This document shows positions 8,246-61,968 of a DNA stretch of 64,000 bases, piece by piece (positions within the stretch are counted from its first letter, which is position 1; each line of letters opens with the position of its first letter). Both the position numbers and the translations under genes were made by a program. The notes under the pieces were generated by a model, which did not search any database, was not told the DNA's origin, and worked only from the letters and a program-made list of their open reading frames with translations. Origin of the DNA: Candidatus Saccharimonadota bacterium. GTDB lineage: Bacteria; Patescibacteriota; Saccharimonadia; Saccharimonadales; Saccharimonadaceae. The stretch covers positions 1-64,000 of the forward strand of contig JAFWGN010000011.1 in NCBI GenBank assembly GCA_017515285.1, given 5' to 3'.

Positions 8246-9417
8246 TTGACCGTGTAGAAAACCCCGGGCAAATTTTAATCAACAACGCCAAAACCTTCGG
8301 TCGTCTCATTCGTGAGCGTTTCGAAAAGGACCCCCGCTTCTATCTTTTCTCCCCCGACGAAACCACCTCAAACCGCCTCACCGAAGTTTATGACGTCGAG
8401 AAACGCGCCTGGAATCTAGGTATCGAATCCTTCGACCTTCCCGAATCAGAAAGCGGTCGCATCGTCGAGCTACTTTCCGAGAATGCGCTTTTTGCGGCCA
8501 TGGTCGGACATCTCAGCAACGGGGAACAAGCCATGATGACGAGCTATGAGGCCTTTTTCTCTATTGTTCTTCCGCAAATCCTTCAACAGATAAAATTTTA
8601 CAAACAAATGAACGCCGTCTCTTGGCGCCGGCCTTGGCCCGCCACCAATCTACTCTCGACCTCTATGTGCTGGCGCCAGGATCACAATGGCTTTTCCCAC
8701 CAATCTCCCGCCGTCATTTCCGCCCTTCTCGACGTCCCGAGCGGACTCACAAACTGCCTTTTTCCGGTTGACGACTCTGCCATTGAAGCGACCTTCGACT
8801 TTATGCTCAAAAGTGCAAATGTTGTAAATTTTACAACATTTGATAAAAACGACACCCCCCGTTGGATCGACTCTAATCACGCCCGCTTCCTTTTCGATAA
8901 CGGTGGTGCGAGCATTTATCAGTTCGCCTCTGACCCCGACCCGGAAATCATCTTAACCGCCGCCGGCGACGTCGCCACTCGGGAAATGCTCCGCGCAAGG
9001 GAAATAATCAAGCGCGATTTGCCAGAATGTCGCCTCCGTTTCGTCGGGATTAACTCCCTAACCTACGGCGCAATCGGGACGGCCGACCGGAAGCTCTCCC
9101 AAGCTACTTTCTCCGACTACTTTACGGATTCTCTCCCCGTCCTCGCCAGTTTCCACGGTTACCCTGAAACCCTAAAAACCATCCTCGGAAACTACGCGGA
9201 CAGAAACCGTCTCGAGGTTCGCGGCTTCCTCGAGGAGGGAACAACCACCACTCCGCTCGAGATGCTCGCTCTTAACCATAACTCCCGCTTCGATCTCGCC
9301 GCCACCATAGCTAGAAAACTCAACCGCCCCGACCTCGCGGAAAAATACCTCAAAGTCCTCGACGACAACCGTACTCACGCTCATTCTTTCGGCGTCGATA
9401 AAATCGAACTAAATTAA
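8242..9417 (+). CDS. phosphoketolase, C-terminal subunit
   Basis: 391 residues covering the middle and C-terminal XFP domains: FSPDETTSNRL, GRIVELLSEN, SYEAFFSIV, WRQDHNGFSHQSP, AAGDVATREML, FHGYPETLKTIL and VRGFLEEGTTTTPLEML. It has its own ribosome binding site (AAAGGAG, 8227-8233, 8 bases before ATG) and overlaps the N-terminal gene by 4 bases, so the two are made as coupled, separate chains. Together they total 713 residues against roughly 790-800 for the usual single chain; the linker motif containing NPHANGG is absent. Codons for VVNFTT at 8817-8841 hold one copy of a recurring palindrome. Confidence 0.9.
   Translation: MIDRVENPGQILINNAKTFGRLIRERFEKDPRFYLFSPDETTSNRLTEVYDVEKRAWNLGIESFDLPESESGRIVELLSENALFAAMVGHLSNGEQAMMTSYEAFFSIVLPQILQQIKFYKQMNAVSWRRPWPATNLLSTSMCWRQDHNGFSHQSPAVISALLDVPSGLTNCLFPVDDSAIEATFDFMLKSANVVNFTTFDKNDTPRWIDSNHARFLFDNGGASIYQFASDPDPEIILTAAGDVATREMLRAREIIKRDLPECRLRFVGINSLTYGAIGTADRKLSQATFSDYFTDSLPVLASFHGYPETLKTILGNYADRNRLEVRGFLEEGTTTTPLEMLALNHNSRFDLAATIARKLNRPDLAEKYLKVLDDNRTHAHSFGVDKIELN
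8817..8841. repeat. TGTTGTAAA palindrome, copy 1 (inside phosphoketolase)
   Basis: A perfect 25-base palindrome (12-base arms AAATGTTGTAAA, single T centre) lies within the coding sequence, where it encodes VVNFTT. It is the most complete of five copies of one motif in the window. Confidence 0.85.
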
Positions 9418-9460
9418 AAAATAGTCCACAAAAAGTCTAGCACATCGCCTCGATTCGTGA

Positions 9461-9680
9461 TAAAATAAAAATGCATAACCAAAAATAAGAATTCATTTGT
9501 AATCGCACGTAACGGTAAAGGTTTGAGCCTGAATACGCAAGCTCAAGCTTTGAATTGGCACCACGAGTTTCCAGTTCGAGCTTTAGCTGCGTATGCGGTT
9601 GAATTCTTAAATTGGTTATGCACCTCGCGGTGCCAATTTTTGTATAGCGCTTCGAGATTACCGTTAACAAAAGGAGGCCT
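9461..9680 (+). promoter_or_regulatory. structured 5' leader of the FISUMP gene
   Basis: TAAAAT (9461-9466) predicts a transcript starting near 9472; no strong -35 is seen. The 208-base untranslated leader has four interleaved pairings. A: 9472-9495 with 9600-9622. B: 9533-9558 with 9571-9594. C: AATTGGCACCACGAG (9553-9567) with CTCGCGGTGCCAATT (9624-9638). G: GTAACGGTAA (9509-9518) with TTACCGTTAAC (9658-9668). B and C share bases 9553-9558, and A crosses C and G, so the pairings form either alternative folds or a pseudoknot. AAGGAGG sits just downstream. I know no described riboswitch with this pattern. Confidence 0.6.
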
Positions 9681-12323
9681 ATGCAGCCAATCAAAGAAAT
9701 CAACCTAATCAACCGAGCCTTGCGAGCTAGTCTCGCCATGCTCGGTTTATTCGTTCTTGCTTTCTGTCTCATCCCGAACTTGATTAGCGAGGCCTCCGCC
9801 ACCGACATTACTTCCAACATAAACTGGTCTCCAGTTTCCCTTGCCCTCGACCCCGACACCGAAGACACCGAGACACCCATAGGTGGTGTCGGGCACGGCA
9901 ACATCCTCTTTAACTTTATCGCCGCAACCTCAGTCTCGGGTAACAACATCGGGACGATGCAGGTCGTCAAAAAGCGCGTCAGCGTCACCACTTCCGGCAA
10001 GCAGTTCATGGTTTACCTCTCTACCGGAAGCGAAACCGACTCTGGCCTCGCTTTGAACGGTGGCGACATGAGCATCGTCCCGATAAATGGTACTTGGTCT
10101 GAACCTGTCGCCTTTACAGGTAAAAGTTGGGGCTACGCCGTCCCGGGAAACGCCAGTTTCGGCGCCGGCCTCGCCACCGCTCCCTCTATTTCTGATTATG
10201 CGGCTTACGATTCAATTCAAGGCCGAGATTTAACTTACGCTTCCTCCGAACATTATAATAAGGGCAAGTGGGCTGCCGTCCCCGTTCTTGGCGGTGCTCA
10301 ACAAATCTGGAAAGCAACCACCACCAACACCGCTGGCTTCGGCGCTTACGAGCTAAACGGCTCCACCGTAAACGGCGACACAAATAACTTCTTTGATATT
10401 TACTACGCCGCCGTCGTTGATACCGACCTTGTTGGCGGGGAATACAAAAACACTCTCGTTTACACCGCTCTCGCTAGTGCAAACGACATCGACCGAGTTT
10501 CTAACAACCTCGTCCGCGACCAAGAGTTCGGCACGGGCGGAGACAAGGTTACCCTAGCGTTCGACCTCGCCTCCTCAACCGCGCTTGTCGAATATGACGA
10601 CGTCAACGTTTGGCTCGTTCCTCATATCGCCACGGAAGGCGACGGTACCGCCGGCTCCGGTAATAATTACACGACCACCGGCCTCGATATCTATAAAACC
10701 AACGACTATAAATGCACTATCGCCGGAAGCTCCGACTTCACCGTCTATAGCAATCGCGTCGAACTCGCCTGCACCGTCCCTACCAACCCCGGCGCCGCCA
10801 CTAACGCCGACGGCCAAAATAACACCTCTGGTGGCGCCACCATGGCGGGCGAATATGATTTTTGGGTAGAAATCCCAGATTATGGCTATAACTACATCAG
10901 CAAATATCAAACTAGCTCCGGTCTCGAAATCGGCTCCTTCACCTATGCCGGTCTCCAAACTCGCGCCCGCGACGCCTATAAACACACTTCCTCCGCCCAC
11001 CGCATTTCCACCATGCAAGAAGTAACCCCAAGCATCTGCAAAAATACGAATATGTGGGGCACCGGCACGGTTGATTCCGCCAGAGTTTATAACTATACTG
11101 GTACCGGCAACCCTCTTGCCTCTTCCGCTAGCGCTTCCGCCGCCATTGGTGTTGGGACCTTCCTGCTTGGCGATAATCGCGAGACTGTCACTTCTGGCGG
11201 ACAAGCCGGAACAAATTATAAAACCTACCTCGTCCGTCGTCTCGCCGACGGTAACTGTTGGATGGTGCAGAACCTCGACCTTAACCTCGCAGATTTTACG
11301 AGCTGGAAGAGCAAGCGCCTTACTTCCGAGAACACCAATCTTAATACTAAAGATATTTGGATTCCTGATGCCGCTTTGTCCAGCCGCACTTGGTCCACCA
11401 ACCCTAGCAAAATCGGAGGTTATGACAATGTTCTCGGAACTACCGGCATCCTTGAGCCTGGTCCCGGTTACTCTTCAGTTGGCGCTCTTTCTATCGACAC
11501 CTACCAATTCCAATCTCGAAACACCTTTGGCCCGAACCTCTATTGGGGAAGTAGGTATCAAGCAAATACTGCCACCGATAACACCGGAACCGCAAATAAC
11601 AATGGGCTAGTGATTGCCAATAACGCTAACTCCTCCTTTGCTCGCTCTTACAACAATGACCTCGCCTATCTCACCGGAACGCAGAACGTAAAAAATCCAA
11701 CCGCCTGCGCCGCCAATACAACCGAAGGTAATGCCCGGATTGATGAATGTCTGCAAAACGGCAAAATCGATAATGCTTACGGTTCCCTTACTTCCATCAC
11801 TTCGAGTGATGGTACTACCCAAGACACTACTTGGCAACCGAGTACCATTACTAGTAACACTGACACCACCTTCACCATGCGCGGTTCGAACTATCTTGGC
11901 GATTATTATAACTGGTATGCCGCCACAGCAGAAACTGGTCAATACTCAACTAGCTCCGGCAATATGCAAGACGACATCTGCCCGAAAGGTTGGAGATTGC
12001 CGAGAAACTCAGGGACGGGTTCATGGGATGACCTCATTAAGACCACCTACCAATTAACAACAAGCTACGGATACACAGCCAATAACCGCAAGCAACTTAA
12101 TAAAATCATGCAGCTACCGCTCTCTATTCCGTTCGCCGGCTACTATGGATGGTCTAATGGCTCGCTCAACGCTAGGGGCGGCGACGGGGACTATTGGTCT
12201 TCTACGCCTGATAGCCCCGAGCTTGCGCACGACCTGAACGTGGGTTATGTCGGCCTCTTGGGTGCGCAGGACGGGCATAATAAGGCGTACGGCTTTACTG
12301 TTCGTTGTGTCGCCCGTGACTAA
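9681..12323 (+). CDS. secreted FISUMP-domain surface protein
   Basis: 880 residues. A hydrophobic signal segment (about 12-33, SLAMLGLFVLAFCLIPNL) is followed by SEASA, a plausible cleavage site. The N-terminal 400 residues are a Thr/Ser/Asn-rich extracellular region. The C-terminal half is the FISUMP domain: MQEVTPSICKNTNMWGTG, VRRLADGNCWMVQNLDLNL, YLGDYYNWYAATA, ICPKGWRLP, GDYWSSTP and GFTVRCVARD at the end. The start is fixed by AAGGAGG 5 bases before ATG. It is the complete paralogue of the gene at the window's left edge. No anchor motif is visible at the C-terminus, so how it stays on the cell is unclear. Confidence 0.85.
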   Translation: MQPIKEINLINRALRASLAMLGLFVLAFCLIPNLISEASATDITSNINWSPVSLALDPDTEDTETPIGGVGHGNILFNFIAATSVSGNNIGTMQVVKKRVSVTTSGKQFMVYLSTGSETDSGLALNGGDMSIVPINGTWSEPVAFTGKSWGYAVPGNASFGAGLATAPSISDYAAYDSIQGRDLTYASSEHYNKGKWAAVPVLGGAQQIWKATTTNTAGFGAYELNGSTVNGDTNNFFDIYYAAVVDTDLVGGEYKNTLVYTALASANDIDRVSNNLVRDQEFGTGGDKVTLAFDLASSTALVEYDDVNVWLVPHIATEGDGTAGSGNNYTTTGLDIYKTNDYKCTIAGSSDFTVYSNRVELACTVPTNPGAATNADGQNNTSGGATMAGEYDFWVEIPDYGYNYISKYQTSSGLEIGSFTYAGLQTRARDAYKHTSSAHRISTMQEVTPSICKNTNMWGTGTVDSARVYNYTGTGNPLASSASASAAIGVGTFLLGDNRETVTSGGQAGTNYKTYLVRRLADGNCWMVQNLDLNLADFTSWKSKRLTSENTNLNTKDIWIPDAALSSRTWSTNPSKIGGYDNVLGTTGILEPGPGYSSVGALSIDTYQFQSRNTFGPNLYWGSRYQANTATDNTGTANNNGLVIANNANSSFARSYNNDLAYLTGTQNVKNPTACAANTTEGNARIDECLQNGKIDNAYGSLTSITSSDGTTQDTTWQPSTITSNTDTTFTMRGSNYLGDYYNWYAATAETGQYSTSSGNMQDDICPKGWRLPRNSGTGSWDDLIKTTYQLTTSYGYTANNRKQLNKIMQLPLSIPFAGYYGWSNGSLNARGGDGDYWSSTPDSPELAHDLNVGYVGLLGAQDGHNKAYGFTVRCVARD

Positions 12324-12336
12324 CCCAAAAGTTCCA

Positions 12337-12399
12337 GCTTTCCTCGGTTCTGGGTCTCCACACCTAGTCCTCATGTGAGGACCCAGAACCGAGGGAAGC
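12337..12399. repeat. hairpin element, FISUMP-associated copy 2
   Basis: The left arm starts GCTTTCCTCGGTTCTGGGTC (12337-12356) and the right arm GACCCAGAACCGAGGGAAGC ends at 12399; 19 of 20 positions pair, and the pairing continues with 2 mismatches to an 11-base loop containing TAGTCCTC. It begins 14 bases after the FISUMP stop codon and lacks a T-run. The sequence is homologous to the hairpin at 1677-1775. Confidence 0.8.
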
Positions 12400-12430
12400 A
12401 AAACTCTCTAATCTATGGTATAATCTAGTC

Positions 12431-13660
12431 ATGACACTATCCGAAGAACTCATTTGGCGCGGTTTCTCCGCCAAGACCACGATTAAAAACCCCGAAGACC
12501 TCGACAATCGGGAGAACAAGCAGTTCTATTGGGGTGCTGACCCGAGTGCCGACTCTTTAACGATTGGCAACCTTGCCGCCCTTATGATGTGCGCCTGCTT
12601 CGTCCGCCACGGATATAAACCCTATCTTCTCGTCGGCGGTGCGACCGGTCAAATCGGCGACCCGAAAGAGAATGGCGAGAGGGAACTAAAGTCTCTCGAC
12701 GAAGTCGAACATAACAAATCCTGCATCAAAAAACAAGTCGAAAGAATCATCAACTCCGACCAAACTACCATGCTCGACAACCTTGATTGGTTTAAGGACA
12801 TGAACTATCTCGCTTTCCTCCGCGAAGTCGGAAAAACCTTTTCCATGACCCAACTCCTCGACCGCCAATTCGTCCAAAATCGCATTGGCGAGGGTGGTTC
12901 CGGCATCTCTTATGCCGAGTTCTCCTACACCTTAATCCAAGGCTACGATTTTCTCCACCTCTACCGAAAATACGGCGTTAATCTCCAACTCTGTGGCGCC
13001 GACCAATACGGCAACTGTGCCTCTGGCATCCACCTAATTCGCCGCCTCGAAAACGCCGAAGCCGACATCTGGTCCACTCCTCTCGTCATTGACCCGGTCA
13101 CGGGCAGGAAATTCGGGAAATCCGAAGGTAACGCCATCTGGCTCGCAAGCGAATCAAGCGACGGAAAATCGGAGAATTACACGACCATCTTCGACTTTTA
13201 TCAATTCTGGCTCAACCAGCCCGACTCCTCCGTCGAATACTTACTCAAGATTTACACCCTCTACGACAAGCCAGAAATCGACCAAATTTTAAGCGACCAT
13301 AAGAAAGCTCCGGAAAAGCGCCTCGCCCAAAAGGCCCTAGCGAGAGGCGCCACCGAAGTCGTCCACGGTGAAGCGTCCGCCAAAAACGCTGAATGGGCCA
13401 CGGATTTCCTCTTCGCCAAAGAAAAGGAATATACCGAGGACAACATCGAAAAACTCGGCAACATCTTAGGCACATATGAAAGAAAAGAATTACTCGACTT
13501 GCTAGTCGAATCCGAACTCGCCTCTTCCAAAACCGAGGCTAGAAAACTCCTAAAATCCGGTGCCATCTCCTTCAACGGCGAAAAAATAACCGAAGACTAC
13601 CAAATTATCTCCGGCGGAATCTTGAAGAAAGGCAAAAACAAGTTCGCTATCATTAAGTAA
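12431..13660 (+). CDS. tyrS: tyrosyl-tRNA synthetase
   Basis: Charges tRNA-Tyr. 409 residues, class I fold: DPSADSLTIGNLAALM carries the HIGH-equivalent motif (TIGN), VGGATGQIGDP follows, YDFLHLY and GADQYGNCASG line the tyrosine pocket, and KFGKS is the KMSKS-type loop (about residue 225). The C-terminal S4 RNA-binding domain is present (SKTEARKLLKSGAISFNG). Length and order are normal. TATAAT (12419-12424) ends 6 bases before ATG without a ribosome binding site, so translation is probably leaderless. It is a single-gene transcription unit preceded by the hairpin element at 12337-12399. Confidence 0.96.
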   Translation: MTLSEELIWRGFSAKTTIKNPEDLDNRENKQFYWGADPSADSLTIGNLAALMMCACFVRHGYKPYLLVGGATGQIGDPKENGERELKSLDEVEHNKSCIKKQVERIINSDQTTMLDNLDWFKDMNYLAFLREVGKTFSMTQLLDRQFVQNRIGEGGSGISYAEFSYTLIQGYDFLHLYRKYGVNLQLCGADQYGNCASGIHLIRRLENAEADIWSTPLVIDPVTGRKFGKSEGNAIWLASESSDGKSENYTTIFDFYQFWLNQPDSSVEYLLKIYTLYDKPEIDQILSDHKKAPEKRLAQKALARGATEVVHGEASAKNAEWATDFLFAKEKEYTEDNIEKLGNILGTYERKELLDLLVESELASSKTEARKLLKSGAISFNGEKITEDYQIISGGILKKGKNKFAIIK

Positions 13661-52937: not shown

Positions 52938-55900
52938 ATGCAAGAAGAGTTGAGGTTAGAAAACAAACACACTTTAAATAAACTCGGAAAAAAGTTTTGG
53001 ATTCCGGTTTTTGCTCTCCTTGCTGCCGCGCTTATTATTGGGACTTTTTCAATCGTCCGCGCGATTACTAGCTCCGGCGATGCGACCTGGATCGACTCCG
53101 CCGCCTCCGTCGGTGGCTATGAACACGACGGCGCCTACCCAATTTATTACGGCACCGACACCAACACTTCCGGTTGGAAGCCCTGGTCAACTCGTTGGTA
53201 TAAAGTAACGACCTCGAGCGGAACTAGCGACGCAATGTGTCTCGAAGCCTCGCTCACCACCCCCTCCGGGTCCGGCACGACTAGCATTAACCACATGGAT
53301 GTTGAGCGAATTATGCTTGCAACCGTCCCGAGTTACAGTGAGGCGTCCGTAGCCGCCGGCGGCCCCGATTATTATACGCTCTTCGCGAACTCTTTCGACT
53401 GGTCATCTTACACCTCGCAAATCACCAACCTCATGACCCGCGACACGAACATCGTTTACGCCTCAAACGACTCTCGCGCCAACATCAACTCAAGCGGCGA
53501 AGAAATCGTCAAATACACCGATTATTACTATGGTTGCTCCAATTACTACAACAGCTCATGCAACAAATCTCTCTCCAACTCCGAAGTCAACCTCACCGAC
53601 GCCATCTTTGCCATGGGGCACATGATGGCGAGCGGTGTCTATTCTTCCGATTATTTTGGCCTTACCTCCGCCGACATCTCCGTTCTCTCGACCGTCCAAT
53701 ACGCCATCGACACTTGGTTCGACAACAATTACCCCAACGCCACCGACGAATACCAATCCTACACCACCTTCGTCTCCAGCGAAAGCAACACTCAAAGCGT
53801 CGGTTGGCTCGAATATTCCGGCCCCACCTCAACCGAATTCCGCATTCACAAAACTGATACTAACGGCAACGACCTCTCTGGCGCCACTTTCGCCGTTTAC
53901 TATTGCGACGATGTTAATTGCCGAACCGCTTCTACTCTTATCGGCACTTATGCCACCACTAACGGCTACACCGACTGTATCTCTCTTGATTCCTCTAAGG
54001 TCATGGACGGGTATGTACGGATTAGGTTTTACGAAACCGTCGCGCCACCAGGTTACAAACTCGACAGCACCAATAACAACGAGGCCTACGCTGTCGGGAC
54101 GACTTGTAGCGACGGCACCACTAGGGCCCAAAATAACGAAAAAGCCACTTCCGTCTATGTCAAAATCAACAAGTTTGACGCCGAAACTTTAAGTTCCGCC
54201 TCCCGCGGCTCTGTTTCGGTCGTCGGCTCCACCTACGGCGTCTATAACAGCGCCGGCACCGAAGTCGCTTCCATCACCATCGGCAGTGATGGCACCGGCA
54301 CCTCAAACACGGTCATCTCCGAGGGGACAAATTATTATATCCAAGAAAAATCCGCCGCCACCGGCTACACTGCCAACTCTTCCCAACGCATTACTTTTAG
54401 CGTCTCCTCCTCCGACGCCGACGGAAGCACGAAAAACTTCACCTCAAGCTCCACTGCTTGTTCTTCAAGCTCAACTAGCGCTTGCTATTTCACTGATTCA
54501 GTTATCAAAGGCAGATTTAGTTTGTCCAAAACCGGTTACGAACTCGGGACAAACGGTTCCTCCTCGTCAAGAAACCTGAGCGGAATTTACTTCACCGCCG
54601 TCAACAAAGCCGACTCATCAATTTCCTATACCGTCGGCCCGACCGCTTCCGACGGCTCCATAACGAGCCCCGAAATGGTTTATGGAAACTACACCGTAAC
54701 CGAAACTAGAAGCTCCGCCAATTCCGCCTACAATCTTCTTTCCTTTGATGTCTCAATTACGAACTCTTCGACTTCCGCTCTCGGAACAAAACTAAACGAA
54801 ATCCCCGACACTCCGAGCCTCTCGACCGTCGCTAGAAACTCCAACTCAACTCACGAAAATCCCGAAAAGGAGCTTGAAATCTCCGGCTCCGCTAGTGTTA
54901 CCGACCGCATTACCTGCTCCGGCCTTCAATCCGGCTCGTCCTACAAAATCTCCGGAGAAATCTGGAATAAAACCACCGGCGCAAAAACCTCCTCCACCGG
55001 CACTTCAACCTTCACCGCCGACTCTTCCGGAACGTGCGGAAACCTCGATATGCTTTTCTCGTCTCTCGACACTTCCGCCTTAATGGGTAACACTCTCGGA
55101 ATTAAGCAATACCTTTACAAACAAAACGGCAGCGACTGGATTTTGATCGCGATGCACAACACCGACCTCTCCGATACTAACGAACAGCTCACCGTTAGGG
55201 CTGTCGAAATCAAAACCACCGCAACGACTTCCCGTTCCAATAATAAACAACTCGCCGTCGGCAAAGTCACCATAACCGACCGTATCGAACTCACCGGCCT
55301 CACTAACGGCGTCACTTATCAACTTCGCGGAACCCTGAAGGATGCGTCCGGAAATACGATTACCTTATCAAACGGCGACGCCTCCAAGACCGAATCCTAC
55401 ACCATGGCCTCTGCAACCGGCGCCACCGTTTACGTCAACATGGACCTCGAATTCGATTCGTCAAATTATATCGGCGGCAACATCGTTGTCTTCGAAACCG
55501 TTCTGACCAGTTCCGGCACCGAACTCGCAAAGCACGAAAGCCTTTCCGACACAGACCAAACCGTTTCCGTCCTTACCCCGTCCATCTCCACCGTCGCCGT
55601 CAACGGCCGTGACGGCTCCAGCAAGGAAATTGAAGTCGGGAACACCACCATCGTTGACACCGTTACCTTTAGTGGACTTTCCGTAGGTAGTGTCTATCGC
55701 CTCGAAGGTGAATTGTGGGATGTTGCCACTAACACCAAGATCGGCTCGACCGCTTCAACCAATTTTACGGCCAGCTCCGAGAACGGCAACACCAACATGA
55801 CGTTCAATATCGACACCTCAACTCTCGTTGGTAAGCAAATTGTTGTTTATGAATATCTTTATTATGGCAACAATAAAATCGCCGAACACGTCTCCTCCTC

Positions 55901-58900
55901 CGATGCCGACCAAACCGTCACGGTAAGAACTCCGACCGTCGACACTACTGCTGTTGACAATTCCGATAATGACAAACTCCTCGAAGTCGGCTCTGGTATC
56001 CGGATTAAAGATACTGTCGCCTATGATGGACTCATACCGAACGATTCCTACACTCTCGTCATGAAAGTCGTCAAGCGTAGCGATCCGTCCGTCGAAGTCG
56101 CGACCGGTTCTAAAGACTTCCAAGCCTCCGACGTCAGCGGCACAGTTGACGTCGTAAGTGCCGTCTTCAATTCCTCGACCCTCCACGACGAAAACCTCCG
56201 CGGCCTCGACCTCGTTGTCTTTGAATATCTCTACCACGGCAGCACTCAAATCGCCAAACACGAAGACAAGGACGACGACAACCAAATCGTCACGGTAAGA
56301 ACTCCGACTGTCGAAACCACCGCCGTCGATAACGCTGATGGCGACAAGCTCCTCGAAGTTGACGAAGGTGTCGTCATTAAAGATACCGTAACTTATGACG
56401 GTCTCGTCAACGACGACAAATACACTCTAAAGCTCACCCTTCGCCGAAAAGACAACCCCGACACTATCATCTCTTCCGGAGTAACGAGAGATTTTTCCGC
56501 CCAGTCCAGTCCCAACAACAAAGTTAACGTTTTAAGCTCCGCCTTCGATACCACCCAGCTCCACGACGCGAATTTCCAGGGTCTAAATCTCGTAGTTTAC
56601 GAAGAACTGTATTATGGCGACGTCCTCATCGCCACACACGAAGACTCTGACGACGAAGCCCAAACCGTCACGGTAAAAACCCCAACCATCGCCACTACCG
56701 CTTACGACGCCCAAAATCACACCCGCGAACTCCCACTTGGCACGACCACCATTATTGACGAAGTACGTTACACTAATCTCGTCGCCGGAAAAGAATATAA
56801 ACTCAAAGGCACACTTATGAACAAGACCACCGGCGAGCCAGTCAAAAACGCGAGCGGCAACGCCATTGTCGGCGAAGGAACATTTACCGCCTCGGACGCA
56901 TCCGGTTCCACCGACCTCACTTTCTCTGTCAATTTTGACGCGGTTCTATTCTTTGATTATAGCGCCGCCTCTCAGCCCGTCTTTGTCGCCTATGAAGAAC
57001 TTTATAAGAACGATGTCCAAATCGCCGAGCATAAAGACATTAACGACGATGACCAATCTATCTCTATCAACCGCCCGACAATTAAAACCAAGGCGACTTG
57101 GAAAGTCAACGACGACATGACTCAAGATTCCAATATGCTTGGTGTCGGTGATGTTATCATGAAAGACTACATCGAATACGAAGGTCTCGTCGAGGGCGAA
57201 TGGTACACCGTCATCGCCTCCATTTACAACCCAGAAACCGGCGCCACCCTAGAAATCGACGACGAATCCGTCGAGAACTCCAAAACCTTCAAAGCCGACA
57301 GCAAAGGCAAAGGTACTGTCGCCATAGAAATCAACCTCAACACCATCTCCCTCCAAGGTAAGAGCTTCGTTGTCTATGAACGTCTTTATCGAGCCGAGAG
57401 CAAGCACGGCGATGGCCGTCTTCTTGACATCCACGAAGAAGCCCTAAATGCCGGCACCCAAACCTTCACGGTTAAGGTCGCGAGTATCGGCACCACGGCG
57501 TCCGATAAAACCGACGGTGACAATGTCCTCACTCATGAAGAAGGCCAGACCATTAACGACGTCGTCCATTACGACGGTCTCCTTATGGACGAAGAATATA
57601 CACTTTACGGTTATCTCTGGGACAAAACCAACAATAAACCTCTCCTCGACACTAACGGCAAGCGCATTGAGTCTTTCTCGACCTTTACCACACCAAGAAA
57701 GTCCGACAATGGCGACGTCACGGTGGAGTTTGCCGTCGATGCAACCGACCTTCCTGGCGCAGAGATTGTCGTCCTCGAATATCTCTTCTCTGGCGGCAAG
57801 AGCTCCATTCCGACCGACAGCGACGGTTACCCGGACACCTCCAAAGTCGTCACCAAACATGAGGACCTAAACGATGCCAACCAAACCGTAAAAGTTTCTA
57901 TGCGCGTCGGAACGACCGCGGCGGACTTCCTCGACGGCGATCAAGAAATTGGCGTCGGCGATGTTAAGGTCGTCGATAAAATGAAGTACGAAGGCGCCAA
58001 GCAAGGCGAAACCTACAAAGCCAAGGGTTGGCTCGTCAACAAAGAAGACGGCTTGAAAGCAAAAAGCGTCGTCATCACTTGCTCGACCGTCAATGAAGAC
58101 GAATCCGAAGAAAACACCGAGGAAGAAGAAGCTTCCTGCACTCGTAGCTATGTTGACATCGAAGGTGAACAAACTTTCGTCGTCGGCTCGGCCGGCTTTG
58201 AAGAAACTACTGGCATTGTCTCGATTGAATTTGAGTTTGATGACCGCGAGTTGATCGGTAAAGAGCTCGTCGTCTTCGAGGAACTTTACCTCGTAAACGG
58301 CAACGAAGAAACTCTCGTCGCCGAACATAAAGACCTCTCTGACGCCGGTCAAACCATCACCGTCGCCACCCCAGAAATCCGCACCATCGCAACCGACGCC
58401 CTCGACGGTGACAAGGAACTCTTAAACGACGCCGACGTCATGATTCGCGACCAAGTCGAGTATAAAGGCCTTGTCCCCGGAACGCTCTATACTCTCAACG
58501 GCGTCCTGGTTGACCGCAAGACCGGCGAACGCCTTTCCGGCGACGCCGCGGAAGCTACCTACACTTTCGAGGCCACGCGCGAATCTGGCACCGAGTCAAT
58601 CGAATTCACCATTAACACTTCCGGAATGAACGGGCGCGAGATCGTCGTCTTCGAAACCCTTTACCTCGAAGACGAAGCAAACGAAGAAAACAAACTCGCC
58701 GAACACAAAGACCTTGAAGACGGCAACCAAACCGTCTGGGTCAAAACCCCCACCCCGTCCGTCCCAAACACCGGTCTCCTCACTCGCTTCTTCGATCGCG
58801 TTACCGAACCTAGCGTCCTCGCCATTCTCGGCGGGCTCGCCGTCGTCTCCACCGGAATCTATGTTTACATGCGCCTGAACTCTCGCCGCAAGATGCGCTT

Positions 58901-58904
58901 CTAG
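52938..58904 (+). CDS. giant cell-surface adhesin: thioester domain, CnaB-like domains, ten VaFE repeats
   Basis: 1988 residues. A membrane/signal helix (about 19-41) is followed by a thioester-type domain with AMCLEASL (Cys101) and STVQYAIDTWF (Gln254), the residue pair that forms an internal thioester for covalent binding to host amines. Three CnaB/SpaA-like domains follow (about 293-380, 400-490, 520-610), then ten repeats of about 130 residues starting with blocks like TVDTTAVDN, each ending in VVFEyLY, HEDL and QTVTV, the VaFE (Thr-Gln ester bond) family. The end has PSVPNTG, a membrane helix (about 1955-1978) and RRKMRF, like a sortase signal with PNTG. The ATG is 8 bases after TATAAT (52924-52929). 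GCTC-GCCCC hairpin follows the stop. Confidence 0.88.
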   Translation: MQEELRLENKHTLNKLGKKFWIPVFALLAAALIIGTFSIVRAITSSGDATWIDSAASVGGYEHDGAYPIYYGTDTNTSGWKPWSTRWYKVTTSSGTSDAMCLEASLTTPSGSGTTSINHMDVERIMLATVPSYSEASVAAGGPDYYTLFANSFDWSSYTSQITNLMTRDTNIVYASNDSRANINSSGEEIVKYTDYYYGCSNYYNSSCNKSLSNSEVNLTDAIFAMGHMMASGVYSSDYFGLTSADISVLSTVQYAIDTWFDNNYPNATDEYQSYTTFVSSESNTQSVGWLEYSGPTSTEFRIHKTDTNGNDLSGATFAVYYCDDVNCRTASTLIGTYATTNGYTDCISLDSSKVMDGYVRIRFYETVAPPGYKLDSTNNNEAYAVGTTCSDGTTRAQNNEKATSVYVKINKFDAETLSSASRGSVSVVGSTYGVYNSAGTEVASITIGSDGTGTSNTVISEGTNYYIQEKSAATGYTANSSQRITFSVSSSDADGSTKNFTSSSTACSSSSTSACYFTDSVIKGRFSLSKTGYELGTNGSSSSRNLSGIYFTAVNKADSSISYTVGPTASDGSITSPEMVYGNYTVTETRSSANSAYNLLSFDVSITNSSTSALGTKLNEIPDTPSLSTVARNSNSTHENPEKELEISGSASVTDRITCSGLQSGSSYKISGEIWNKTTGAKTSSTGTSTFTADSSGTCGNLDMLFSSLDTSALMGNTLGIKQYLYKQNGSDWILIAMHNTDLSDTNEQLTVRAVEIKTTATTSRSNNKQLAVGKVTITDRIELTGLTNGVTYQLRGTLKDASGNTITLSNGDASKTESYTMASATGATVYVNMDLEFDSSNYIGGNIVVFETVLTSSGTELAKHESLSDTDQTVSVLTPSISTVAVNGRDGSSKEIEVGNTTIVDTVTFSGLSVGSVYRLEGELWDVATNTKIGSTASTNFTASSENGNTNMTFNIDTSTLVGKQIVVYEYLYYGNNKIAEHVSSSDADQTVTVRTPTVDTTAVDNSDNDKLLEVGSGIRIKDTVAYDGLIPNDSYTLVMKVVKRSDPSVEVATGSKDFQASDVSGTVDVVSAVFNSSTLHDENLRGLDLVVFEYLYHGSTQIAKHEDKDDDNQIVTVRTPTVETTAVDNADGDKLLEVDEGVVIKDTVTYDGLVNDDKYTLKLTLRRKDNPDTIISSGVTRDFSAQSSPNNKVNVLSSAFDTTQLHDANFQGLNLVVYEELYYGDVLIATHEDSDDEAQTVTVKTPTIATTAYDAQNHTRELPLGTTTIIDEVRYTNLVAGKEYKLKGTLMNKTTGEPVKNASGNAIVGEGTFTASDASGSTDLTFSVNFDAVLFFDYSAASQPVFVAYEELYKNDVQIAEHKDINDDDQSISINRPTIKTKATWKVNDDMTQDSNMLGVGDVIMKDYIEYEGLVEGEWYTVIASIYNPETGATLEIDDESVENSKTFKADSKGKGTVAIEINLNTISLQGKSFVVYERLYRAESKHGDGRLLDIHEEALNAGTQTFTVKVASIGTTASDKTDGDNVLTHEEGQTINDVVHYDGLLMDEEYTLYGYLWDKTNNKPLLDTNGKRIESFSTFTTPRKSDNGDVTVEFAVDATDLPGAEIVVLEYLFSGGKSSIPTDSDGYPDTSKVVTKHEDLNDANQTVKVSMRVGTTAADFLDGDQEIGVGDVKVVDKMKYEGAKQGETYKAKGWLVNKEDGLKAKSVVITCSTVNEDESEENTEEEEASCTRSYVDIEGEQTFVVGSAGFEETTGIVSIEFEFDDRELIGKELVVFEELYLVNGNEETLVAEHKDLSDAGQTITVATPEIRTIATDALDGDKELLNDADVMIRDQVEYKGLVPGTLYTLNGVLVDRKTGERLSGDAAEATYTFEATRESGTESIEFTINTSGMNGREIVVFETLYLEDEANEENKLAEHKDLEDGNQTVWVKTPTPSVPNTGLLTRFFDRVTEPSVLAILGGLAVVSTGIYVYMRLNSRRKMRF

Positions 58905-60007
58905 CTCGCCCCGAAGGGGAGCAACTCTTGCGGGTTCTCCCGAATCCTTCTCGTTGTCTCCCGCTTTCGTCGATAATTCTTAAATCCGAGAATAATAAAC
59001 GGAAGTAAAATCGGAATATAAAGAAGAAAGATTTTCGCATCATTTTTCGGAAGGTTAATAATAAAACTCGTTTGTTTCGAGAAAAACTCGATCACAAACA
59101 GGTGGTAGCCCAATGATATTGTTGCAATTTTTACAACAATCGCCTTCAGCCCGTCGAAAATAAAGAACGCCGGCAGGAATCCAGAAAGTCCGGTCAAAAA
59201 CGTCATCCCCATCGCAAACGGAATCGTTGGAAGGATTAAAATGTTTGCCACGAGCGAGATTAGAGAAATCGTCCCAAAATAATAAATCAAAATCGGCGCG
59301 CACATCAGCGTCGCGGAAACGCTCGCAAGTAGCGTCTCGGTAATCAGCCCGGGCTTCTCCCTACCTTTTCGTCCGAAGAAAAATTGTGTAAAAAGCGGGT
59401 TCAGAATCAAGATTCCCGCAAACGACGCGAACGAAAGTTGCCACCCGAGATTAACGAGATAAAGCGGGTTAATAAGAAGCGTTACGCTCATCGCAAAAAG
59501 AATAATTCTCCACGCGTCCATCTTCCGGCCGTAATACCACCCCAAAAGCCCAAGCAAGGAAACAATCGCCGCCCGCGTAATCGACGCGGTCCAACCAATA
59601 ATCTGTGCAAAGATAATAATAAAGACGGCCGCAAACAGAAGCCCTGCAAAACGCGATATTTTTCCGAACCGTTTTTTGAAGAACTCAACAATAATCGAAA
59701 GGTGCGTTCCGCTCGCAACTACAATATGCGTCAGCCCGACCAATTTCAACATCTCTTGTGTCTTGTCATCAAGCCCGCTTTTCATTCCGGCAAGATACGC
59801 CAGCCCGAGTTTCGCCTCCGTCCCGCTGAGCGTGCCCTCAACCTTTTCCGCAAACTTATCGCGGACCTCGAGCGCAAGGCCCTTCGGCTCCGCTTTTCTC
59901 GAGTTTTCGCGCTCCTCTTCCGGAAGCCCCGCGACAAAAAGGACGGCAAAAACAATGACGCCGACCATAGCGAGAACGAAGCCGATTCTCAAAATTTTCT
60001 TACCCAT
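58901..60007 (-). CDS. comEC: ComEC/Rec2 competence channel, core domain only
   Basis: 368 residues from ATG 60007 (TATAAT-like box just upstream on the minus strand; the ATG at 60049 lies outside it). Ten or so membrane helices with GLTHIVVASGTHLSIIVEF, IIGWTASITRAAIVSLLG and NPLYLVNLGWQLSFASFAGIL, the Competence domain of ComEC. Full-length ComEC is about 700-800 residues; here the N-terminal OB domain is reduced to about 70 residues and the C-terminal metallo-beta-lactamase domain is absent. Its 3' end overlaps the adhesin stop codon by four bases. Contains palindrome copy 5. DNA uptake is likely but not certain. Confidence 0.9.
   Translation of the reverse strand: MGKKILRIGFVLAMVGVIVFAVLFVAGLPEEERENSRKAEPKGLALEVRDKFAEKVEGTLSGTEAKLGLAYLAGMKSGLDDKTQEMLKLVGLTHIVVASGTHLSIIVEFFKKRFGKISRFAGLLFAAVFIIIFAQIIGWTASITRAAIVSLLGLLGWYYGRKMDAWRIILFAMSVTLLINPLYLVNLGWQLSFASFAGILILNPLFTQFFFGRKGREKPGLITETLLASVSATLMCAPILIYYFGTISLISLVANILILPTIPFAMGMTFLTGLSGFLPAFFIFDGLKAIVVKIATISLGYHLFVIEFFSKQTSFIINLPKNDAKIFLLYIPILLPFIILGFKNYRRKRETTRRIRENPQELLPFGAS
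59118..59140. repeat. TGTTGTAAA palindrome, copy 5 (inside comEC)
   Basis: Core TGTTGCAATTTTTACAACA (59120-59138) with ATT/AAT flanks; one base of the arms differs. Encodes VVKIAT on the minus strand, in the same codon phase as the other three genic copies. Confidence 0.8.
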
Positions 60008-60036
60008 ATATATTATATGTATGATACAATAGAGAC

Positions 60037-61968
60037 ATGCCGAAATCAAATGTTTCCCCCAAACCAGTCAAGAAATCTAGCGCAAAAAGCGCTTCCAACT
60101 TCATTCGCTCGATTATCTTCTTTTGTATCGTTATTCTCTTATGTTCCGCACTATTTAACTCCATAAGTGGCAACCGTGTTGCTCTGGAGACCGTCCCACT
60201 CTCTAGCGTCATTTCCCGCGCGAACGACCCAAACGGGAACATCTCAAAGATTTCCGTCGATGGGAACACCTTAAAAATCACCTTAAAGGACAAAGATTAT
60301 CCGACCGAAATCTCCAGAAAAGACCCTTCCGGAACGCTTTACGACCAAGGTTTAGTAAACTATTGCGCCGAAATTGAAAACGCCGAGGAAAAAGCGGCCT
60401 GCGCGTCAAACTACCCCACCATCGAATACGCCGAGACCTCGGACATCTGGGGAACTGTCCTTGACGTCGGCTTAATTGTTTTTCCGATTCTTGCCCTCGT
60501 CCTCTTCTTCTCTTACATGATGCGCCAAGCGCAGTCGATGAACAACCAAAACTTGGGGTTCGGAAAGGCCAAAGCTCGCCTCTATGGCCCCGACAAAAAG
60601 AAGGTCACCTTCAAAGACGTCGCTGGAAACGAATCCGCGAAACAAGATTTGGAAGAAATTGTTGACTTCCTCAAACACCCGAAAAAATACGAAACCTTGG
60701 GCGCGAAAATCCCGCGTGGTGTCCTTCTTGCCGGCGACCCTGGGACGGGGAAAACCCTCATGGCGCGCGCCGTTGCGGGCGAAGCCGGCGTTCCGTTCTT
60801 CTCGATTTCCGGCTCCGAGTTTGCAGAAATGTTCGTCGGTGTCGGCGCCTCTCGCGTTCGCGACCTCTTCCAAAAGGCCAAGAAAAACGCCCCCTCAATT
60901 ATCTTCATCGACGAAATCGACGCCGTCGCCCATAAGCGCGACGCTCGCGGTGGTGCTGGTCGCGAAGACGAACAGACCTTGAACCAAATCCTCGTTGAAA
61001 TGGACGGTTTCGACAACGAATCCGGCGTCATCGTCATCGCCGCTACCAACCGCGTCGATATGCTTGACAAGGCTCTTCTTCGCCCCGGCCGTTTCGATCG
61101 CCATGTTAACGTTGCCCTTCCGGAAAGAAAAGACCGCCTCGAGATTTTGAAGGTTCATTTTAAGGGTAAGCCCGTCGCTTCAAATCTCGACCTCAACTCT
61201 CTCGCCGCTAAAACCGCCGGTTCTGCCGGCGCCGACCTCGCCAACATCGCAAACGAAGCCGCAATCACCGCCGCCCGCCTCGGACACAAGGAAATCACCA
61301 ACGCCGATTTGACCGAAGCCTTCGAACGCGTCGCCATCGGTCCCGAACGAAAGAGCAAGGTTATGAACGACAAGGAAAAACAAATCACCGCCTACCACGA
61401 AGCTGGCCACGCCATCGTCGGCCACGTCCTCCCGGATTCCGACCCGGTTCATAAGGTAACGATTATTCCTCGCGGACGCACCGGCGGCGTTACCTGGTTC
61501 CTTCCGCCTGAGGACAAGAGCTACAAGAGTGTCTATGAACTAAAAGACATCCTCGCTCGTGCCATGGGCGGCCGTATCGCCGAAAAACTCGTCTTCGGCC
61601 CCGAAGCCATCACGACCGGTGCTTCCTCCGACCTTGAAAACGTTGCCTCTCTCGCTAAAGAAATGATTACCGAAGAAGGTATGGGCTCGAAAACCCGCAA
61701 CCTCGTCTTCCCCGAAGGAGAAACTGGCTACTATACAATCCAAACCGGGAAGCCATACAGCGAAAAAACCGCCGAACTCATCGACGAAGAAATCAAGCAA
61801 CTCTCCGAAGAGGCCGCCACTCGCGCCGAAGCCGTCCTGAAAGCCAACCGCAAGGTCCTAGACGACCTCGCAAAGGCCCTCCTCGAACGCGAAACTCTGG
61901 AAGAAAAGGACCTCGAGCCGCTCCTGAAACCCGCCTCCCTCCCTGTTGCCGCCAAACTTCACGAATAA
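60037..61968 (+). CDS. ftsH: ATP-dependent zinc metalloprotease FtsH
   Basis: Membrane AAA protease for quality control. 643 residues: first membrane helix (about 27-45), an extracytoplasmic loop, second helix (about 140-165), AAA domain with GDPGTGKT (Walker A, about 233-240), [10 protein letters not shown] (Walker B), [19 protein letters not shown] (SRH), and the protease domain with HEAGH (454-458) and the third zinc ligand Asp in [14 protein letters not shown]. Length and order are normal. TACAAT (60025-60030) ends 6 bases before ATG, so translation is probably leaderless; comEC diverges from the same region. Confidence 0.96.

Follow-up and report, generated by a model that had tools for sequence, protein, structure and literature searches.

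A predicted thioester-tipped, sortase-anchored fibrillar adhesin with an invariant histidine in a gut-type Saccharibacterium

Introduction

The mechanisms by which Patescibacteria bind their hosts have been described as largely unknown (PMC12206443). A long gene in an 850-kb Saccharibacteria genome (20 contigs) raises the question of whether a covalent, wall-anchored adhesin could be one of them and which residues would make the bond. TIE proteins, thioester domains (TEDs), and VaFE repeats are already known, and the TED_2 family is already in Pfam. TEDs were described as occurring exclusively in Gram-positive bacteria (Walden et al.), and searches of the open-licence literature found no thioester-tipped protein of such a kind described from Saccharibacteria or Patescibacteria. 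Our analysis indicates, with a probability of about 0.84, that the gene encodes a fibrillar, sortase-anchored, TIE-type covalent adhesin with a Cys101–Gln286 tip. The bearer is an ultra-small, gut-type Saccharibacterium, here known solely from a metagenome-like assembly; the records of its relatives are labeled Candidatus Saccharibacteria, and two of them originate from the jejunum of sheep and the rumen of water buffalo.

Results

An intact gene for a predicted adhesin in a conserved neighborhood

The window, that is, the whole 64,000-nucleotide stretch of DNA analyzed, contains the following open reading frame, which was intact on re-reading and has the length given in the preliminary description:

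52938–58904, + strand: complete gene for a TIE-type adhesin of 1,988 amino acids (open reading frame translation; syntenic orthologues)

The gene is flanked by PhoH-like, comEC-like, ftsH, and der genes. Syntenic orthologues adjoin comEC-like and ftsH genes at three loci (L020, L021, and L022) and PhoH-like and comEC-like genes at a fourth (L025). The orthologues, found in independent metagenome-assembled genomes (MAGs), are 41% to 46% identical, and the neighboring ftsH products are 86% to 89% identical. Contamination, misassembly, or a binning error can be excluded, because independent MAGs keep the gene beside the same comEC-like and ftsH genes. The ComEC-like gene itself (window 58901–60049, − strand) encodes a short protein of 382 amino acids with the Competence domain alone; it is convergent with and abuts the adhesin gene, a position kept in the orthologous loci.

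A stalk of CnaB and ester domains with a sorting signal

Downstream of the N-terminal tip, and preceded by a signal region at the extreme N terminus, the protein is built as follows (all on the + strand):

52938–53063, + strand: signal peptide region, residues 1–42, with basic n-region, hydrophobic core, and VRA (sequence reading)
53835–54071, + strand: SpaA/CnaB domain 1 (profile match)
54210–54419, + strand: SpaA/CnaB domain 2 (profile match)
54558–54770, + strand: SpaA/CnaB domain 3 (profile match)
54813–55199, + strand: T-Q ester domain 1, a degenerate copy with Gln replacing Glu and the ester Gln at His+10; the profile itself matches as far as 55103
55206–55571, + strand: T-Q ester domain 2
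55578–55925, + strand: T-Q ester domain 3
55932–56297, + strand: T-Q ester domain 4
56304–56675, + strand: T-Q ester domain 5
56682–57065, + strand: T-Q ester domain 6
57075–57473, + strand: T-Q ester domain 7, lacking the acid Asp
57483–57896, + strand: T-Q ester domain 8
57903–58364, + strand: T-Q ester domain 9
58371–58742, + strand: T-Q ester domain 10
58761–58775, + strand: VPNTG sorting motif (all 43 homologues have P[NDE]TG)
58812–58901, + strand: hydrophobic helix and basic tail (RLNSRRKMRF)

The ten VaFE repeats counted in the preliminary description were recovered as ten T-Q ester domains (PF18202, E 6.1e-210; NF033903, E 9.4e-216), and the CnaB domains that it placed in the stalk as three SpaA/CnaB matches with putative isopeptide bonds. 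The ester bond of Cpe0147 involves Thr450, Asp480, Glu547, His572, Asp577, and Gln580 (PMC12679949). The same Thr, Asp, Glu, His, Asp, and Gln set, spaced as in Cpe0147 (Asp, His+5; Gln, His+8), is present in 8 of the 10 repeats (2 to 6 and 8 to 10), whereas the other two, unlike Cpe0147-like adhesins, each lack one catalytic residue: in repeat 1, Gln replaces the oxyanion-site Glu and the ester Gln is shifted, and in repeat 7, Asn replaces the acid Asp.

The C terminus carries VPNTG, a hydrophobic helix, and an RRKMRF tail, the anchor proposed earlier, and all 43 homologues likewise end in P[NDE]TG, helix, and basic tail. A sortase had been expected on these grounds, and a genome search recovered two sortase genes, on another contig, above the Pfam cut-off. 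Sortases are near-universal in the genus (172 of 174 genomes), so finding them here lends support to anchoring without being a discriminating test. With an N-terminal TED behind a signal region read from sequence, a CnaB/ester stalk, and a PxTG-like anchor accompanied by sortase, the protein has the composition of a TIE protein.

Sortases also assemble pili, and the protein could instead be a pilus or stalk component serving mainly in cell–cell spacing or biofilm structure, not host attachment. For one sortase, the best class-specific match is to the pilus-polymerizing class C, far below the model cut-off, and SpaA domains are frequent in pilins; against this, the adhesin is a single large gene whose neighbors (PhoH-like, comEC-like, ftsH, and der) include no pilin or sortase gene, the sortases lie on another contig, and the reactive-tip residues are strictly conserved. 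We regard a primarily structural role as very improbable.

Five invariant residues in the tip

Homologues were gathered by their stalk (PF18202, in 53 of 174 genus genomes), to which a handful of close orthologues retrieved with the tip itself were added; except for these few, the choice was therefore independent of the tip residues. The parts of the tip are:

53067–53819, + strand: N-terminal thioester domain of TED_2 type, residues 44–294 (held-out profile, PF20610 matches of relatives, model, Foldseek)
53148–53150, + strand: Tyr71 codon, invariant, 43/43 (alignment)
53238–53240, + strand: Cys101 codon, predicted thioester Cys, invariant, 43/43, at a strand end (model 52–58)
53415–53591, + strand: clade-specific insertion, residues 160–218, containing Cys200 and Cys208 and modeled with low confidence
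53619–53621, + strand: His228 codon, invariant, 43/43, in model helix 176–193 (candidate alpha2)
53697–53699, + strand: Gln254 codon, partner proposed earlier and rejected here (1/43, mid-helix)
53793–53795, + strand: Gln286 codon, predicted thioester Gln, invariant, 43/43, directly before the last strand (model 245–250)
53805–53807, + strand: Trp290 codon, invariant, 43/43 (alignment)

Among 43 N-terminal domains of the genus, with a mean column identity of 19%, just five positions never vary, namely Tyr71, Cys101, His228, Gln286, and Trp290. The histidine had been overlooked in the preliminary description. A search with the TED_2 profile, the match of which ends before the Gln, added seven proteins, and these keep the Gln and Trp too. 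The 59-residue insertion (window 53415–53591) is confined to the closest orthologues and contains a conserved GCSNYYNSSC-like Cys pair; it may lie close to the reactive site and serve in specificity.

Gln286 as the predicted partner of Cys101

The preliminary description had paired Cys101 with Gln254. The cysteine stands, being invariant in 43 of 43 domains, but the glutamine does not: in the Gln254 column, the window protein alone has Gln (1/43), and the invariant Gln is Gln286. The modeled fold, in which Gln254 is residue 211, in the middle of helix 201–221, does not favor the earlier partner either, and Gln286 precedes the terminal strand. The earlier choice leaned on a "QxAI.xW" string resembling TQxA(I/V)W. 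In known TEDs, TQxxPhiW is a separate helix motif, and the bond does not depend on its Gln or Trp (PMC4450167, PMC6194298). The QYAIDTW string around Gln254 does not fit the motif, having Trp at +6, versus +4 in TQxxPhiW. A string resembling the helix motif was thus mistaken for the bond-forming one, and we give next to no weight to the same adhesin with a Cys101–Gln254 thioester.

Gln286 is preferred because it sits before the terminal strand, where known TEDs place the bond-forming Gln. Specifically, in model numbering, Cys101 lies in strand 52–58 and Gln286 two residues before strand 245–250, with both residues present in all 43 domains. The Cys-to-Gln spacing in the set is 119 to 192 residues (median 143), and the solved class I pairs (Cys109–Gln261, Cys94–Gln247, and Cys138–Gln267) are 129 to 153 apart. 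Gln286 also begins a QDIVW string with Trp at +4 and was considered as the TQxxPhiW Gln; this was excluded, since it precedes the terminal strand and lies 119 to 192 residues past the Cys. Conserved Cys and Gln alone do not prove a bond, and the Cys101–Gln286 internal thioester is accordingly a prediction from alignment and model.

Family membership and fold

In Pfam scans, PF20610 (TED_2, "Thioester domain") was matched by 32 of the 43 domains (best E 1e-15), and weak PF08341 matches were found in 4 of 43 relatives (best 0.011). At E ≤ 1, the window domain had no match to PF08341 or PF20610, and PF08341 had no match anywhere in the window genome. As the window copy lacks a TED_2 match while its relatives have one, its membership is by transitivity. 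A profile built from the 36 other members, leaving out the window protein and the six relatives closest to it, recovered the window domain with a score of 63 bits (E 1.7e-16 for a nominal 100,000 sequences; 0 of 200 shuffles matched) and aligned its C101, H228, Q286, and W290.

AlphaFold with the 43-row alignment gave a model (pLDDT 81.6, pTM 0.82) of strands, a helical center, and two strands; single-sequence AlphaFold of the tip was of no use (pLDDT 34). The best PDB matches of the model in Foldseek were class I TEDs, 5a0d (E 5.1e-3, probability 0.96) and 5a0n (E 5e-2, probability 0.51); all matches above 0.5 probability were class I TEDs and the remainder was noise. TM-scores were low (0.31 to 0.46), partly due to the 59-residue low-confidence insertion, and the modeled similarity to class I TEDs is moderate and not conclusive. 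A profile search of PDB sequences found no TED. On the combined sequence and model evidence, we assign the tip domain to the thioester-domain superfamily. A class II TED is excluded, because the His-to-Gln spacing of 53 to 81 residues is too short for the beta-sandwich of approximately 75 residues that is inserted, in that class, between alpha3 and strand P.

The class I TEDs of SfbI, PnTIE, and CpTIE (5A0L, 5A0N, and 5A0G/5A0D) share with the window tip the N-terminal position, the [YFM]C motif on a strand, the Gln directly before the terminal strand, a central helix motif some 60 residues beyond the Cys, the lack of the 75-residue class II insert, and the isopeptide/ester stalk with PxTG anchor. 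They differ in that the window tip has an xHxxxG-like motif with invariant His in place of the TQxxPhiW helix motif, that it falls below the PF08341 threshold, and that its bearer is a Patescibacterium. The TED_2 model demands the same Cys and His as found here, although the window copy has diverged below detection and has the 59-residue insertion; a literature search found no publication on TED_2. Among other TIE proteins, the class II proteins SaTIE and BaTIE, as well as TIE-pLS20, likewise combine a thioester-type tip with a Cna-type stalk. SaTIE has ester domains too, whereas the window protein has many more (10) and lacks the class II slipknot beta-sandwich of SaTIE and BaTIE, and TIE-pLS20 is not sortase-anchored, in contrast to the PxTG-type anchor here.

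The invariant histidine

The TQxxPhiW motif, found in most but not all TEDs, is absent from the window tip, where the helix motif is xHxxxG-like with an invariant His instead. In the shortest members, this His is 58 residues past the Cys, and the classical TQxxPhiW of a Saccharibacterium of another genus (L072) is 59 residues past its Cys. An hhalign comparison with the canonical L072 TED aligned the Cys motif and left the helix motif unaligned, so that the proposed equivalence of the His228 and TQxxPhiW Gln positions rests on spacing (at least 58 versus 59) and the order of secondary-structure elements. His228 belongs to the predicted central helix and is probably situated at the thioester.

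Substitution probes of the TED_2 model in one relative, in which the match stops before the Gln and Trp, showed a cost of 7.2 bits for loss of the Cys and of 6.8 (to Gln) or 7.2 (to Ala) bits for loss of the His, and the model scored neither Gln nor Trp. The invariant His is new with respect to published TED motifs, yet implicit in Pfam TED_2.

An invariant Cys–His pair with a Gln would also suit a cysteine-protease-like or transglutaminase-like site, and the thioester is a prediction from sequence and model. The tip could be a TED fold that has lost the thioester and binds non-covalently, with Cys101, His228, and Gln286 kept for some other purpose, for instance as a Cys–His–Gln hydrolase-like site or a structural hydrogen-bond network. 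Yet the credible fold matches are TEDs and none are peptidases, spacing and secondary structure follow TEDs, and TED_2 is catalogued as a thioester domain, which makes a thioester-free tip quite unlikely.

Distribution and other thioester proteins

Across the phylum, the tip domain was found in 2 of 380 sampled genomes, both of this genus, and tblastn gave no match for a TED_2 copy in plasmids or phages, or for a canonical TED in plasmids. A single classical TED was found among 383 sampled genomes of the class, in a Saccharibacterium of another genus (L072:1412–4414, + strand; PF08341, E 6e-11), with TQLAIW and seven SpaA domains, so that both TED types occur in this family.

The source genome (G000) encodes a second thioester-type protein of 1,638 amino acids (L071:1307–6220, − strand; contig C20, approximately 8306–13219), with the same C/H/Q/W pattern (C69, H143, Q206, and W210) followed by Listeria-Bacteroides (Flg_new) repeats; it has no PxTG sorting signal and ends in PVRY. 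A protein of 1,037 amino acids from another genome (L077) shares this layout, with SPRY at its C terminus, which hints at a second way of display that does not involve sortase. Two proteins from a third genus, g11 (L073:405–6113, − strand, and L074:649–4086, − strand), combine 10 to 11 Cna_B domains with a weakly TED_2-like N terminus and are perhaps a further thioester variant. Two loci (L054, on G294 C48, and L053, on G062 C10) each hold a tandem pair of differing thioester/ester-domain adhesin genes, suggesting duplication and diversification of tips.

Discussion

Domain matches, conservation, the sorting signal, and the sortases together give good support to the thioester-tipped, ester- and isopeptide-stalked, sortase-anchored adhesin first proposed. 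In the mechanism that we envisage, the protein, once exported by Sec, would be cleaved at VPNTG by a sortase and attached to the cell wall; its stalk of ten ester-crosslinked and three CnaB domains would keep the tip at a distance from the cell. In the tip, Cys101 and Gln286 would form the internal thioester, which a nucleophile on the target surface would open, leaving a permanent bond to Gln286, and His228 may hold the thioester or tune its reactivity. Covalent host binding by an epibiont, as first proposed, would be the outcome. As to the target, our leading guess is a bacterial host, because the small number of Saccharibacteria in culture live as epibionts on Actinobacteria (PMC10633639), and TIE-pLS20 places a TED at work between bacterial cells, in conjugation (PMC8092201). 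Animal mucus, protozoa, and gut plant fibre are alternative guesses.

The invariant His has a counterpart, by analogy, in complement C3 and C4B and in A2ML1, which likewise combine a conserved His with a Cys–Gln thioester and in which the His confers thioester reactivity toward hydroxyls; A2ML1 without it no longer reacts with glycerol (PMC7864068). The parallel is not evidence, and no kinship is claimed, but the hydroxyl reactivity that His gives in C3, C4B, and A2ML1 makes bonding to glycans a testable idea. Taken furthest, TED_2 would be a chemically distinct class of bacterial thioester adhesins, in which the invariant His steers the bond to hydroxyls and a Patescibacterium becomes permanently esterified to glycans of a bacterial or other host; we hold this extension to be rather doubtful. 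If the His does act as in C3 and C4B, the chemistry of thioester adhesins would reach beyond lysine targets. For the Patescibacteria, a conserved, wall-anchored, and probably covalent adhesin would provide a concrete, one-protein entry to the question of how they hold their hosts.
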